Virus record (IMG/VR): IMGVR_UViG_3300023181_000040
Coordinates: 1 to 49,999 of that record
Length of the DNA: 49,999 bases
Direction: 5' to 3' (one strand)
DNA from: a virus
A program made the position numbers and the translations under genes. Position 1 is the first letter of the stretch. Each line of letters opens with the position of its first letter. The notes under the pieces are model-generated. The model saw only the letters and a program-made list of their open reading frames with translations. It searched no databases and was not told the origin of the DNA. Below are positions 23,320-49,999 of the stretch, piece after piece.

Positions 23320-23403
23320 ACAGGCGTAATCGGTAAATGGAAGCCGCCCTGATTTGGGATCAGGAGTAGAAATACGCTGCAAGTTCGAGTCTTGTCGCCT
23401 GTA
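23320..23403 (+). tRNA. tRNA-Pro-like (anticodon TGG) with long variable arm
   Basis: Acceptor stem ACAGGCG/CGCCTGT; anticodon stem CCTGA/TCAGG around loop TTTGGGA (anticodon TGG, Pro); T arm GCAAG-TTCGAGT-CTTGT. The region between anticodon and T stems is 14 nt with a possible GTA/TAC mini-stem, which is class-II-like and unusual for Pro. The D stem is only CGG/CCG. It is 84 nt without encoded CCA. Confidence 0.65.
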
Positions 23404-23406
23404 CTT

Positions 23407-23477
23407 AGAGTGATGATGTAACGGAAGCATATCAGACTTTGATTCTGATTGTACAGGTTCGATGCCTGTTCGCTCTT
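23407..23477 (+). tRNA. tRNA-Gln (anticodon TTG)
   Basis: Acceptor AGAGTGA/TCGCTCT (one T-G pair), D arm ATG/CAT, anticodon stem TCAGA/TCTGA with loop CTTTGAT (anticodon TTG), T arm ACAGG-TTCGATG-CCTGT. Standard size (71 nt), no encoded CCA. It starts 3 nt after the tRNA-Pro-like gene. Confidence 0.85.
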
Positions 23478-23480
23478 CTT

Positions 23481-23547
23481 TCAACAACGGTCTGTTGAAT
23501 CACATTCGGAGTTGAGAATTCAACCGGTAAGGCGCACCCGTTCCGAA
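23481..23547 (+). ncRNA. Structured spacer between tRNA-Gln and tRNA-Tyr
   Basis: First a hairpin TCAACA/TGTTGA (23481-23486 with 23493-23498). Then a compact three-way junction: outer stem TTCGGA/TCCGAA (23505-23510 with 23542-23547) encloses GTTGA-gaat-TCAAC (23511-23524) and CGG/CCG (23525-23527 with 23538-23540), with a single unpaired T in the junction. It does not fold as a tRNA by eye. It may be a processing element or a new small RNA. Confidence 0.45.
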
Positions 23548-23557
23548 AGCGCTATTG

Positions 23558-23639
23558 GGGAGTAATGTCGCAATGGTGCGCGCTTGACTGTAAATCAGGT
23601 AACCGGCATAGGTAGTAGGTTCGATTCCTGCTGCTCCCA
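23558..23639 (+). tRNA. tRNA-Tyr (anticodon GTA)
   Basis: Acceptor GGGAGTA/TGCTCCC, anticodon stem CTTGA/TCAGG with loop CTGTAAA (anticodon GTA), a long variable arm as normal for bacterial tRNA-Tyr, and T arm GTAGG-TTCGATT-CCTGC. 82 nt, discriminator A, no encoded CCA. Confidence 0.88.
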
Positions 23640-23645
23640 CTACAA

Positions 23646-28749: not shown

Positions 28750-30896
28750 TGGGGCCAACATTCCAATTTGAGATTAAGAAGGACGATAATACATGGTATG
28801 CCCTACATCCTGACGGCACCGTGTATGAGCGTCCTGAACCCTACTATCTAAAGTTCGCCCTCAAAGGATGGGAAGAAACAACAATAAGCTGGATTCGCGA
28901 CCCTGAACTCCACGGCATCGGCAGCTTTGCGACCACGCCTTACGAGGCGGTGCATGATGCTAAAGCTATCCTGCGTTATGTAAAATATACCTATGGACGA
29001 CGTGGGAAGGCAAGGCTCATTACCAATCTGCGCGAAGAATTCGACTTAGGCACCGTCTGGCAATACAAGCCGTGGTACGCGGCCGATATTGACATTGCAA
29101 AGGCGGTTGATACCCGTGATGGCGTTGCCGCCACATTGCTAGGCACTGGTATTTCCGAGGTGCTAAAGGCAAAACAGCGTACGCCGGTTGAGATACCTCT
29201 CCTTAATGCTGATGCTATCAGGGTTCTATTCAACGGCGTTATCCTGAAGAACAGTGCCAGCTTCTTTATGACTGGCAACCCCTCCGGCGACAACGAGAAC
29301 ACGGCCCACACGCCGCAGCTTATCGTAAGTACACTGGACACCTACGGCAACAATACGCAAGGAGTGCAGTACACCGAGGGGACAGGCCCGCCAGATGATC
29401 CGCGTTGGTTCCTTAAAGCCACCGTTGCAACATCGGTGGTCATAGACTATGATTTCACGCTCACTACCAATTCGCTGCCGGGGATAAACTACGGGCTTGC
29501 ACTCCTGCGTTCAGGCTTCGTTGTCATTGACGCAGGCAATACTACATCCACATCCTACAATCTTATTTCTGAAAACAACTCTGTCATCTACCTTGGCACA
29601 ACCTATCACCCGATAGGCCAGATAACCATTGCGCTGAACCCCGGCGATAAGTTGTACTATACAACCCGCTTTGCCGGTAGCCCATCCGGCCCCGCGTCGT
29701 TCATCTACGGCACCATTACACCAACATCCCCTCCATCCCTGAAGATTGCGTATGATTCGCGGCAGGCACAGCGGCAAGTCCCATCATACCGTTACTTCCA
29801 GCTATTCCAAAAGGTAGTATCAGAAGCTATCAGCCCTGCTGCTGTGGGCAACTCCCCAATACTGACTAACCCATTCCTAGATCGGAATAGTAACTGGGAT
29901 ATGCGCTTCTTTAACATCGCTGCCACCTGTGGCGATGCCTTACGCGGGTTGGGGGATGGTTCCGCGCCAGCCACAGCGGCAAAGATTAAAACCACCATTG
30001 CCGACTGCGCAAAACACATCTGCAATGCGGGGATGCTTGCCATGACACAGCTAAACAACCAACTTAGCATAGTGCCACTTGCGGCGGTATATCAGGACGT
30101 GGAGATTGCTTCATTGGGGGAAGTATCAGGTCTTGAAATATCAGAGTACGAACCGGCCTTTTTCAACAACCTGAAGAACGGTGGGCAAGCGCAGGACTAC
30201 GATAGCCTGAACGGGCGCGATGAGTACAACCAAGGGCAGACCCGCAACAGTGGGGACGGCATGTTGTCCGAGGACAGGGATTGGACTTCACCCTACCGGT
30301 ATGACCCGCTTGGTATAGACTTCCACATGGCGAACCTTGCCGGTAAGACAACGACCGACAGCGGGCAGGATAACGAAACCTTCTTAGCCGACATTGGAGA
30401 CTTCCTGATAGACGGCTTCTATCCATTGTATCGACCTGCATCGCAGAACGCCGCAACGGGTGTGTTTTCGCCATCCAGTAAGTTCAATTTTAGCATGACC
30501 CCCGGGCGGGATGCGCGTCGTAACGGCCCGCGCATTGCCCCTGCGTTTCACCTTGTCCCCGGCGGCGTGCTTACATTCCAAACGGCGGATAAGAATGCTG
30601 CACTGTCGGTGAATTTAGGTGCCGGAACGGTTACTGAGAATGCTGATATACCTGCTGCCGAACTTGGCCCGATGCTTTATAAGCCCATCCTGTTTAAATT
30701 CACGGCTAAAACGCCAATAAACCTGCTTGAATTAATGGCGGTCAATCCACACGGGTACTTTACCTTTACAAGCGAAGAAATGACGTTTAAGGGATTCCCA
30801 ATGGATATAGGCACAAGGCCCGCCACGCATGAAACATACGAGTGTATATTGCTTGCCCACCCAACGACGGACACAAACCAACTGATTAACCGCTAA
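28749..30896 (+). CDS. Tail tip/distal tail protein (715 aa)
   Basis: A 715-residue beta-rich protein immediately after the tape measure (1-nt overlap). The N-terminus (residues 1-110) has YYLKFALKGWEETTISWIRD, which resembles distal-tail-type modules. The remainder is probably a baseplate hub or tail-associated lysin scaffold without a visible catalytic motif. Call by position and length. Confidence 0.6.
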   Translation: MGPTFQFEIKKDDNTWYALHPDGTVYERPEPYYLKFALKGWEETTISWIRDPELHGIGSFATTPYEAVHDAKAILRYVKYTYGRRGKARLITNLREEFDLGTVWQYKPWYAADIDIAKAVDTRDGVAATLLGTGISEVLKAKQRTPVEIPLLNADAIRVLFNGVILKNSASFFMTGNPSGDNENTAHTPQLIVSTLDTYGNNTQGVQYTEGTGPPDDPRWFLKATVATSVVIDYDFTLTTNSLPGINYGLALLRSGFVVIDAGNTTSTSYNLISENNSVIYLGTTYHPIGQITIALNPGDKLYYTTRFAGSPSGPASFIYGTITPTSPPSLKIAYDSRQAQRQVPSYRYFQLFQKVVSEAISPAAVGNSPILTNPFLDRNSNWDMRFFNIAATCGDALRGLGDGSAPATAAKIKTTIADCAKHICNAGMLAMTQLNNQLSIVPLAAVYQDVEIASLGEVSGLEISEYEPAFFNNLKNGGQAQDYDSLNGRDEYNQGQTRNSGDGMLSEDRDWTSPYRYDPLGIDFHMANLAGKTTTDSGQDNETFLADIGDFLIDGFYPLYRPASQNAATGVFSPSSKFNFSMTPGRDARRNGPRIAPAFHLVPGGVLTFQTADKNAALSVNLGAGTVTENADIPAAELGPMLYKPILFKFTAKTPINLLELMAVNPHGYFTFTSEEMTFKGFPMDIGTRPATHETYECILLAHPTTDTNQLINR

Positions 30897-44992: not shown

Positions 44993-45193
44993 TTATTTGG
45001 TGAAAAATACTGCGGCTGCCTTCCCTATCCATGCGCACAAAATGCAGAAAGTGTCCATATCAACTTTCCCGCCCCGCTCTACGCGGCTATGTGTGGCTGC
45101 GGACACCCCCGTGATGGATGCGGTCACCCTTAGCGGCGTATCACACCTTTGCCGCCTTACAGCCTTTGCGAATAATTCTCGGTTAAACTTCAT
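44993..45193 (-). CDS. Small XRE-family helix-turn-helix regulator (66 aa)
   Basis: A 66-residue Cro/CI-type regulator; the helix-turn-helix is about residues 20-40 (LRVTASITGVSAATHSRVER) followed by MDTFCILCAWIG. It has no protease or dimerisation domain. It heads the leftward operon and is divergent from the gene at 45262. The intervening region has a perfect palindrome and repeated half-sites, which suggests self-regulation. No integrase is present, so classical lysogeny is unproven. Confidence 0.75.
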   Translation of the reverse strand: MKFNRELFAKAVRRQRCDTPLRVTASITGVSAATHSRVERGGKVDMDTFCILCAWIGKAAAVFFTK

Positions 45194-45210: not shown

Positions 45211-45257
45211 GTTGCGCAACATAAACAACCTAAATGGGCACAAACAACGTAATTTTG
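45211..45257. promoter_or_regulatory. Operator-like region between XRE regulator and rightward gene
   Basis: Perfect palindrome GTTGCGCAAC (45211-45220), then two direct repeats ATAAACAAC and ACAAACAAC (45221-45229 and 45240-45248). Rightward -7 box TAATTTTG (45250-45257) ends 4 nt before the ATG at 45262. A leftward box TAATATTG (about 45203-45196) lies on the other side of the palindrome. A related sequence (GCACAAACA) precedes the endolysin promoter at 46024. Confidence 0.6.
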
Positions 45258-45261
45258 GCTA

Positions 45262-45531
45262 ATGAACTACACCGACCTCACAGCAGCAGCCCAACAGGAC
45301 GGGCGGGTGATGCACCTTACTACCGAACTAGTCAACGCGGGCGTATTGGTGCCGCGCATACAGGAGCTGATATTGCAGGCCATTCCCGACACGGGCAACC
45401 ACTATGCAGATGATGCCATTGAATGGGCTGTGGGGCGGATTCTAAAGGCGTTGCAGGCCGAATTGAAGCGGGCGTTACGGAAGGAGCCTACATGGTGGGG
45501 GGCGCGGTTGCTGCGGTACCTGTTTGGGTAA
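45262..45531 (+). CDS. Hypothetical protein divergent from the regulator (89 aa)
   Basis: An 89-residue helical protein with a basic C-terminus. It is expressed opposite to the XRE gene and would share its operator region. Cro-like genes occupy this position in lambdoid phages, but no helix-turn-helix is clear. It is followed by the non-coding locus at 45532-46055. Confidence 0.55.
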   Translation: MNYTDLTAAAQQDGRVMHLTTELVNAGVLVPRIQELILQAIPDTGNHYADDAIEWAVGRILKALQAELKRALRKEPTWWGARLLRYLFG

Positions 45532-45537
45532 TAAGAA

Positions 45538-45558
45538 AGCCCACTGGTTAGGTGGGCT
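45538..45558. terminator. Terminator T3 (leftward)
   Basis: Perfect 7-bp stem AGCCCAC / GTGGGCT (45538-45544 with 45552-45558), 7-nt loop. Leftward it is followed by TTTCTTATT; rightward there is no T-tract. It would end leftward RNA from the promoters at 45.8-46.0 kb, and may also shape the 3' end of the rightward gene. Confidence 0.6.
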
Positions 45559-45563
45559 TAGGC

Positions 45564-45698
45564 GTGTGGCATGGGTTCAACTAAGATTAGTATGAACCGC
45601 TGGCTTGGCAGGCGGATTCTCCACACCTTAGAGAGGTTCAATAAATCCCATAAATGGGCGTTCCTTTGGCGAACTGCACCTGTTTACCCTCTCACCAC
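45564..45698 (-). ncRNA. Highly structured non-coding segment
   Basis: Outer stem GTGTGG/CCACAC (45564-45569 with 45621-45626) encloses a long hairpin GGTTCA..TGAACC (45574-45579 with 45593-45598, extended by ACTA/TAGT) and a second GC-rich hairpin near 45599-45613. Next come GAGAG/CTCTC-type outer pairing (45631-45692) around CCCA-taaa-TGGG (45648-45659). There is no ORF of note. The segment lies downstream of leftward promoter P2, so it may be the body of a small RNA. Confidence 0.45.
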
Positions 45699-45702
45699 AA
45701 AA

Positions 45703-45719
45703 CCCCGCAAGAAGCGGGG
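45703..45719 (-). terminator. Terminator T2 (leftward)
   Basis: CCCCGC / GCGGGG (45703-45708 with 45714-45719), 5-nt loop. On the leftward strand it is followed by TTTTG. Terminates RNA from P2 after about 70 nt, unless read through to T3. Confidence 0.7.
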
Positions 45720-45776
45720 CAGTGTGTTACGCGGGACGGCGTAGCTGATGAAAGGGGGGACTTTGTGTTGCAATTG

Positions 45777-45806
45777 CAAAGATACCAACTCCCGCCACAC
45801 CACAAA
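45777..45806 (-). promoter_or_regulatory. Leftward promoter P2 (TTTG-N18-TATCTTTG)
   Basis: On the minus strand TTTG (45806-45803), 18 nt, TATCTTTG (45784-45777). The 12 bases TTTTGTGGTGTG at its upstream end are identical to those of P1 at 46016-46005, with the same 18-nt spacing. Downstream there is no start codon with a meaningful frame before T2, so a non-coding RNA is likely. Confidence 0.7.
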
Positions 45807-45835
45807 ACAGATTGGTCATGAACTACACGAAAAAA

Positions 45836-45856
45836 GCCACTACATTTCGCAGTGGC
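45836..45856 (-). terminator. Terminator T1 (leftward, possibly bidirectional)
   Basis: GCCACT / AGTGGC (45836-45841 with 45851-45856), 9-nt loop, leftward T6. Rightward it is followed by CTTTT, so some bidirectional function is possible. Ends the P1 transcript after about 150 nt. Confidence 0.8.
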
Positions 45857-45878
45857 CTTTTAAAGTAAAATTTCTTCC

Positions 45879-46007
45879 TTATTCTATTTTTGCCTTTTCG
45901 GCTTCCTTTACGCGTTTACTCTGGATTACGTTACATGATTGACAGTCCGGTTTAGTGCACGATGCGTTACGGTATCTTAGAACACCAAAGGTACGCACCC
46001 ATTTCAC
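45879..46007 (-). CDS. Possible small Cys-motif peptide under P1
   Basis: An open frame ending at 45879 that contains CTKPDCQSC and a basic-acidic helical tail, and stops 23 nt before terminator T1. The only in-frame start candidates (GTG at 46007 or 45998) lie upstream of the expected P1 start site (about 45980), so either the promoter or the coding call is wrong. Listed with low confidence because it is the only coding candidate here. Confidence 0.2.
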   Translation of the reverse strand: MKWVRTFGVLRYRNASCTKPDCQSCNVIQSKRVKEAEKAKIE

Positions 46008-46015
46008 ACCACAAA
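45986..46015 (-). promoter_or_regulatory. Leftward promoter P1 (TTTG-N18-TACCTTTG)
   Basis: On the minus strand TTTG (46015-46012), 18 nt, TACCTTTG (45993-45986). It is the upstream member of a homologous promoter pair with P2 (45777-45806). The transcript would run to T1. Confidence 0.7.
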
Positions 46016-46043
46016 ATCCAATGGCACAAACAGCGTGTTTTTG

Positions 46044-46051
46044 TACCTTTA
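46044..46051 (+). promoter_or_regulatory. -7-like box (TACCTTTA) before the endolysin gene
   Basis: Lies 4 nt before the ATG at 46056. Upstream (46020-46043) is a sequence like that near the XRE operator (AATGGCACAAACA...GTTTTTG), so both genes may answer to the same regulator. Confidence 0.4.
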
Positions 46052-46055
46052 TCAC

Positions 46056-46685
46056 ATGACCCGCTCCGAAATCCAGCAGATACAGACAGCCCTTAACGCA
46101 GCATTGCCCGACCTGCCGCGATTGGCTCCGGACGGATTAATCGGTGCCAAGAGCAAGGCCGCACTCATGGCATGGGAAACGCGGCGCGGACTGGCACCGG
46201 TTGCGGACTTTGAACGGGCTTATGGGGTGATGTTCCCGGCGCAAGAGAAGCCTTTCCCGCGCAACATAAAGTATCTTGTCCTGCATTGCGCCGCTACACA
46301 GCCGGATGCGACGATTGAGAGCATACAGCGATATTGGCGGGTTAACTTAGGGTGGAAGGCTCCCGGTTATCACTGGCTGATTTCTGCCGATGGCGTTGCC
46401 CACGCATTGCAGCCAATAGAGAAGTCATCCAACGGCGTTGCAGGCTACAACAGCACGTCTATACACATCAGCTACATCGGGGGCATAGACCGTAACGGGA
46501 AGCCCAAAGACACACGCACCGAGGCGCAAAAAGTAACGCAGCTACGGTTACTCCGCGAACTACGGGTTAAGTTCCCAAAGGCTCGTATATTGGGTCATCG
46601 GGACTTCCCCAGCGTTTCAAAGGCCTGCCCTTCCTTTGACGTGAAATCATGGGTTGAGGCGAATGGGATAAAGGCGAATCCGTAA
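46056..46685 (+). CDS. Endolysin: N-acetylmuramoyl-L-alanine amidase with PG-binding domain
   Basis: A 209-residue lysin. Residues 1-55 are a peptidoglycan-binding-type helical domain (ALNAALPDLPRLAPDGLIGA). Residues ~70-200 are an amidase_2/T7-lysozyme-like domain with zinc ligands H77 (YLVLHCA), H181 (LGHRDFP) and C191 (ACPSFD). It cuts the amide bond between MurNAc and L-Ala. No signal peptide, so it needs a holin. It lies away from the holin-like genes, with its own start-proximal -7 box and terminator. Confidence 0.9.
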   Translation: MTRSEIQQIQTALNAALPDLPRLAPDGLIGAKSKAALMAWETRRGLAPVADFERAYGVMFPAQEKPFPRNIKYLVLHCAATQPDATIESIQRYWRVNLGWKAPGYHWLISADGVAHALQPIEKSSNGVAGYNSTSIHISYIGGIDRNGKPKDTRTEAQKVTQLRLLRELRVKFPKARILGHRDFPSVSKACPSFDVKSWVEANGIKANP

Positions 46686-49615: not shown

Positions 49616-49914
49616 GAAATGACACTTTAATTAGGCTTCTACTCATGGAAGTTGAAAAGGAGCGGGAAGAAGCAGAGCGTTACTTTAAAATATCTGAAAT
49701 GCCTGCCTTAGAGCCAATGATTGACGTTTCGCCAAGCACCATGCCTCCGCCGCAAAACAACAAAGAGGCGCGCCTCCAAAGCAGGCAGAATAGGAAGAAG
49801 CAGCGCGGCACTATACAGCGGCCTGCAAGCATGAACCAAAACACACAACCTCGTAACGAACCTTGCAACTGCGGGAGCGGTATCAAGTACAAAAAATGCC
49901 ACGGTAAGCCATGA
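49612..49914 (+). CDS. SEC-C zinc-motif protein (100 aa)
   Basis: A 100-residue protein. A charged helical N-terminus, a Gln/Asn/Arg-rich linker, and a C-terminal SEC-C motif (C85-x-C87 ... K-C96-H97-G). SEC-C binds zinc and occurs at the end of SecA and of many unrelated proteins as a protein or RNA contact. The start at 49612 is set by the ATGA overlap. The 3' end is repeated at the window start. Confidence 0.8.
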   Translation: MRNDTLIRLLLMEVEKEREEAERYFKISEMPALEPMIDVSPSTMPPPQNNKEARLQSRQNRKKQRGTIQRPASMNQNTQPRNEPCNCGSGIKYKKCHGKP

Positions 49915-49999
49915 CCCACCCCTTCCGATTCTACTGCCTTAAAGGCGAATTTGCCGGTATTAAAGAGTTCCACGGCACATATGATGAAGCCTACCAACT
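49853..49999. repeat. Right copy of terminal direct repeat
   Basis: Same 147 bases as 1-147 apart from A at 49979 (C at 127). Joining the ends gives a continuous reading frame for both flanking genes, which supports a circular map of 49,852 bp. Confidence 0.9.
49911..49999 (+). CDS. Small hypothetical protein, 5' part (complete copy at 59-202)
   Basis: The first 29 codons of the same small gene that is complete at 59-202, cut by the window end. The only difference is the silent change at 49979. Confidence 0.6.
   Translation, partial: MTHPFRFYCLKGEFAGIKEFHGTYDEAYQ

Follow-up and report, generated by a model that had tools for sequence, protein, structure and literature searches.

Partly conserved leftward promoter and terminator signals around unconserved sequence in a 524-bp gap beside the endolysin gene of an uncultured phage

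The window analyzed here is the whole 49,999-nt stretch of IMG/VR record IMGVR_UViG_3300023181_000040. Its ends are identical (bases 1–147 equal bases 49853–49999), and the contig closes circularly at about 49,852 bp, though it is classed as linear. Its genes include those for a terminase, a portal, a major head protein and a single-strand binding protein. Because its promoters are of the Bacteroidetes type, the sequence suggests that this uncultured phage infects a member of that group. The sole close relative found was IMGVR_UViG_3300022924_000006 (G001; 48,251 bp), in which the terminase is near-identical and the structural genes share long stretches at 84–92% identity, whereas the accessory half mostly shares short islands at 90–100% identity between unrelated sequence. 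At 23320–23640 the window has three tRNA genes (Pro, Gln and Tyr), where G001 has other sequence and no tRNA.

The region of interest is a 524-bp gap (45532–46055) between two rightward genes, which the first-pass annotation had placed between a regulator and the endolysin. The gene on the right, starting at 46056, is indeed an Amidase_2 endolysin (PF01510, E 8e-13), whereas the immediate left neighbor (45262–45531, 89 aa) had no Pfam or PHROG match that would make it a regulator. One gene further left, 44993–45193 matched HTH_31 weakly (E 0.041) and is a possible XRE-type regulator. The endolysin gene itself (46056–46682; L084 4001–4699 for G001) has its N-terminal part in common with G001 and its catalytic part replaced, a domain swap.

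Two leftward sigma-A-type promoters were found on the minus strand of the gap, P1 at 45986–46016 (TTTTGTGGTGTGAAATGGGTGCGTACCTTTG) and P2 at 45777–45807 (TTTTGTGGTGTGGCGGGAGTTGGTATCTTTG). Both follow the design TTTG-N18/19-TAnnTTTG (N19 in P1) with exact matches in both boxes, and both contain TTTTGTGGTGTG, so that the same-design promoter pair and the common 12-base stretch described earlier were confirmed. Published sigma-A promoters of Bacteroides and Flavobacterium have TAnnTTTG at −7 and TTTG near −33, the −7 box occupying −12 to −5 (PMC7366714; PMC9723704). P1 and P2 carry both elements, and from the published box position their starts are predicted near 45981 and 45772, respectively. 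When the gap was dinucleotide-shuffled 2000 times, at least two TTTG-N17-20-TAnnTTTG sites occurred in only 1 shuffle and a repeated 12-mer in 17. The sequence TTTTGTGGTG occurs three times in the window, always within the gap, with the third copy at the U-tail of terminator T2, as had been noted. A pattern search with the promoter design returned one match group, in unrelated low-GC phages. On the plus strand, 45648–45670 (AAATGGGCGTTCCTTTGG) resembles the P1 core (AAATGGGTGCGTACCTTTGG) and is possibly a decayed inverted copy.

The flanking genes carry signals of their own. A TAnnTTTG-like −7 box stands a few bases before the ATG of both the 89-aa gene and the amidase gene, and AATGG(G)CACAAACA(A/G)C lies directly upstream of both boxes (45234–45262 and 46020–46056, plus strand). 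A close form of the latter is found at both genes in G001, and we regard it as a candidate operator. The rightward amidase promoter region (46020–46056, plus strand), back to back with P1, consists of a AATGGCACAAACAGC element followed by a −7-like box, TACCTTTA, 4 nt before the ATG; the G001 amidase has TATCTTTG 3 nt before its ATG. Because such a box and the candidate operator precede the ATG, the amidase appears to have its own promoter and is probably leaderless.

Three leftward intrinsic terminators, each a G+C-rich hairpin followed by a T run, confirm the hairpins that had been proposed: T1 at about 45834–45862, T2 at 45702–45720, its U-tail entering the third TTTTGTGGTG copy, and T3 at 45537–45559, immediately beyond the stop codon of the oppositely oriented 89-aa gene. 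None of 500 dinucleotide-shuffled versions of the gap contained two strict leftward terminators. The gap makes up 1% of the genome and has three of its nine leftward terminators. E. coli phages, PhAPEC5 among them, carry the identical T3 hairpin, annotated as 'terminator'. The T2 pattern was found in IMG/VR in G001 only, its matches elsewhere, in Synechococcus genomes and one MAG, being terminators unrelated to it. The loop CCTAACCAG is common to T3 and the terminator after the tRNA-Tyr gene (in 23320–23640).

Motif scans alone never prove activity, and a scan for E. coli-type promoters found none in the gap, though that class is not expected here. All of the signals might thus be chance matches, with no leftward RNA made. 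Given the promoter and terminator shuffle counts (1 of 2000 and 0 of 500) and the clustering of leftward terminators, chance is a poor explanation; the conservation in G001 described below also speaks against it, and we consider it highly improbable. The gap holds real leftward promoter-terminator signals, beyond chance.

The lengths of the predicted RNAs follow from the coordinates, as calculated in the first-pass annotation: about 150 nt for P1-T1, about 70 nt for P2-T2 (45702–45776, minus strand, with the T2 hairpin at its end) and about 240 nt for P2-T3. The branched structure proposed for 45564–45698 is weaker than described: the fold of the body (45537–45690, minus strand) had a z-score of −1.43, with 15 of 200 shuffles folding equally well, and that of the plus strand −1.21. 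The whole 299-nt stretch reached −3.63, a value to which the T2 and T3 hairpins and base pairs between units contribute, and the P2-T2 RNA folded better than shuffles at −2.98, T2 hairpin included. In agreement with the earlier statement that the locus matches no known RNA, an Rfam search of the gap gave nothing above the gathering threshold; the Bacteroides families BTnc049 and BTnc231 matched far below it. No tRNA or tmRNA was detected in the gap at normal settings, and matches at relaxed settings look like background. DNA relatives of the gap were absent from plasmids and, apart from T3 and a short amidase match, from phages, and a 22-nt stretch of the T2-T3 body was not found in IMG/VR.

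The P1-T1 filling (45882–45985, minus strand) contains an open frame with a C-X4-C-X2-C pattern and a lysine-rich end, and its profile matches are marginal (Pfam AZUL, E 0.067; phrog_14757, E 0.052). These features would fit a decayed coding cassette: P1-T1 would be what remains of a small zinc-finger-like gene, and the promoters and terminators would be left over in the mosaic debris that makes up the rest. However, the frame has no ATG, GTG or TTG downstream of the expected P1 start and no homologue except for the promoter part in G001, and such decay would leave the conserved P1, T2 and T3 unexplained. We therefore rate the decayed cassette as rather unlikely.

Comparison with G001, the one relative on which all conservation statements about the gap rest, showed that P1, T2 and T3 are kept and that P2, T1 and the bodies of the window are missing. 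Homology is confined to three islands. The first covers the 89-aa gene and T3 and ends at the foot of the hairpin, the second covers T2 and its tail TTTTGTGGTGAGAGG, and the third runs continuously from the endolysin start through P1 and ends about 3 nt past the −7 box, at about the P1 start site. The T2-T3 body (45562–45698, minus strand) is unrelated to its G001 counterpart, 766 of 1000 shuffles aligning equally well, so that there is neither a conserved structure nor any covariation to count. As far as the two sequences tell, the signals persist between the phages and the bodies do not. Conserved borders flanking unrelated filling are also present elsewhere in both genomes, and the pattern is therefore not special to this gap. 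The amidase relatives L082, L083 and L085–L087 have no alignable gap, and nothing resembling P1 or T2 was seen upstream of their amidase match. In the T2-T3 slot of G001 (L084 3715–3847, minus strand; G001 30519–30651) we observed a degenerate, tRNA-like cloverleaf in which a large insert takes the place of the anticodon loop; this is suggestive only, as it was seen post hoc and a loose scan gives about four background matches per 300 kb of strand.

Between the promoter and T2, the window is faintly similar to the G001 P1-T2 stretch (55 of 2000 shuffles were equally good). Together with the strong termination, the short length and the P2-T2 fold, this similarity would suit fast-evolving, trans-acting small RNAs, where a promoter-to-T2 RNA of about 70–85 nt targets messages of the host or the phage and changes in sequence along with its target. 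The first-pass annotation had also proposed looking for complementarity to phage messages, and among 82 phage gene starts no target exceeded chance: with the RNA's own antisense set aside, the best matches fell within the range of shuffled queries (40 mononucleotide shuffles per RNA, phage targets only). With the T2-T3 body unrelated and Rfam silent as well, trans-acting small RNAs are a possible but doubtful account.

The same results bear on the original proposal of a structured small-RNA pair controlling lysis or the neighboring gene. The locus adjoins the endolysin gene, and an antisense RNA to an endolysin gene is known in phage PAK_P4 (PMC12197685). However, the predicted RNAs run away from the endolysin without overlapping it, stop before the left gene and have no phage target beyond chance, which leaves control of lysis without support, and the body is neither conserved nor structured beyond shuffles. 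What survives of the pair is a set of leftward, terminated, apparently non-coding units, borne out by the shuffle statistics and by P1, T2 and T3 in G001; a conserved or structured RNA is not borne out by the fold, the unrelated T2-T3 bodies or Rfam. We consider a structured pair controlling lysis or the neighboring gene very unlikely. Direct antisense control of the endolysin or the 89-aa gene is likewise unlikely, because the predicted transcripts begin upstream of the former, head away from it and stop short of the latter.

The reading that we favor, at about even odds, is a mosaic slot that separates two rightward genes and is occupied by an array of short units, transcribed leftward and self-terminating, with transcription inferred from the signals. 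P1 and P2 would be recognized by host sigma-A, and the RNAs begun there would end mostly at T1 and T2, T3 serving as the final stop before the opposing 89-aa gene. The endolysin-side promoter and the two left terminators are kept between the two phages while the transcribed filling is exchanged, so leftward transcription with clean termination would matter more than the RNA sequence. If rightward transcription continued past the 89-aa gene to the amidase gene, the predicted RNAs would be complementary to the resulting message. Because G001 retains the promoter and terminators but not the filling, the likelier role is an OOP-like effect in cis of transcription, acting on such read-through, or simple insulation, and a sequence-specific or structured RNA acting in trans is the less likely one.

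In favor of the array are signals beyond chance that agree with a published promoter consensus and with terminators annotated in other phages (T3), the retention of P1, T2 and T3 with homology ending at the P1 start and the T3 foot, and bodies that are unconserved and unstructured. Against it, P2 and T1 are not conserved, the relative is a single one, and borders around filling may be general mosaicism that serves no particular function. Moreover, the faint promoter-to-T2 similarity leaves room for a conserved short RNA, and an amidase with its own promoter makes the rightward read-through message itself unproved. The signals are real and their kind is ordinary. A more far-reaching version, in which the promoter and terminators are fixed and the RNA between them is regularly replaced (possibly by a tRNA-like one in G001), would make the locus a site devoted to exchanging short non-coding RNAs, perhaps against changing host targets or defenses; we regard this as a long shot. 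If fixed signals and changing bodies recurred in further relatives, the locus would be one at which phages exchange short RNAs. To our knowledge, small RNAs of Bacteroidetes-infecting phages are little described, and the locus supplies exact predicted start and stop positions for such RNAs.

Among known systems, morons are units with their own promoter and terminator inserted between genes. The gap resembles them in having its own promoter and terminator, and in that G001 lacks P2, T1 and the bodies or has other sequence in their place. It differs in holding no recognizable gene, the only candidate being the ATG-less P1-T1 frame with its marginal profile matches. Its short conserved borders around unrelated filling also recall mosaic phages, in which short conserved sequences border unrelated filling (PMC3029335). 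PAK_P4as15 of Pseudomonas phage PAK_P4, about 550 nt long and antisense to the endolysin (PMC12197685), is likewise an RNA adjoining an endolysin gene, but the RNAs predicted here are shorter and run away from that gene. High-confidence intergenic small RNA candidates of Bacteroides thetaiotaomicron were defined by a promoter and an intrinsic terminator (PMC7366714). The gap has the same promoter class with intrinsic terminators, although its start sites are predicted rather than mapped and BTnc049 and BTnc231 match far below threshold. In lambda, the 77-nt OOP RNA (pO-tO) runs leftward through a rightward part of the genome and ends at its own terminator (PMC12197685). It overlaps the cII message and base-pairs with it, whereas P1-T1, P2-T2 and P2-T3 all fall within 45537–45981 and overlap no recognized gene, the 89-aa gene ending at 45531 and the amidase starting at 46056. 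Any likeness to OOP would lie in arrangement rather than sequence, the signals here predicting short leftward self-terminated units in a rightward region.
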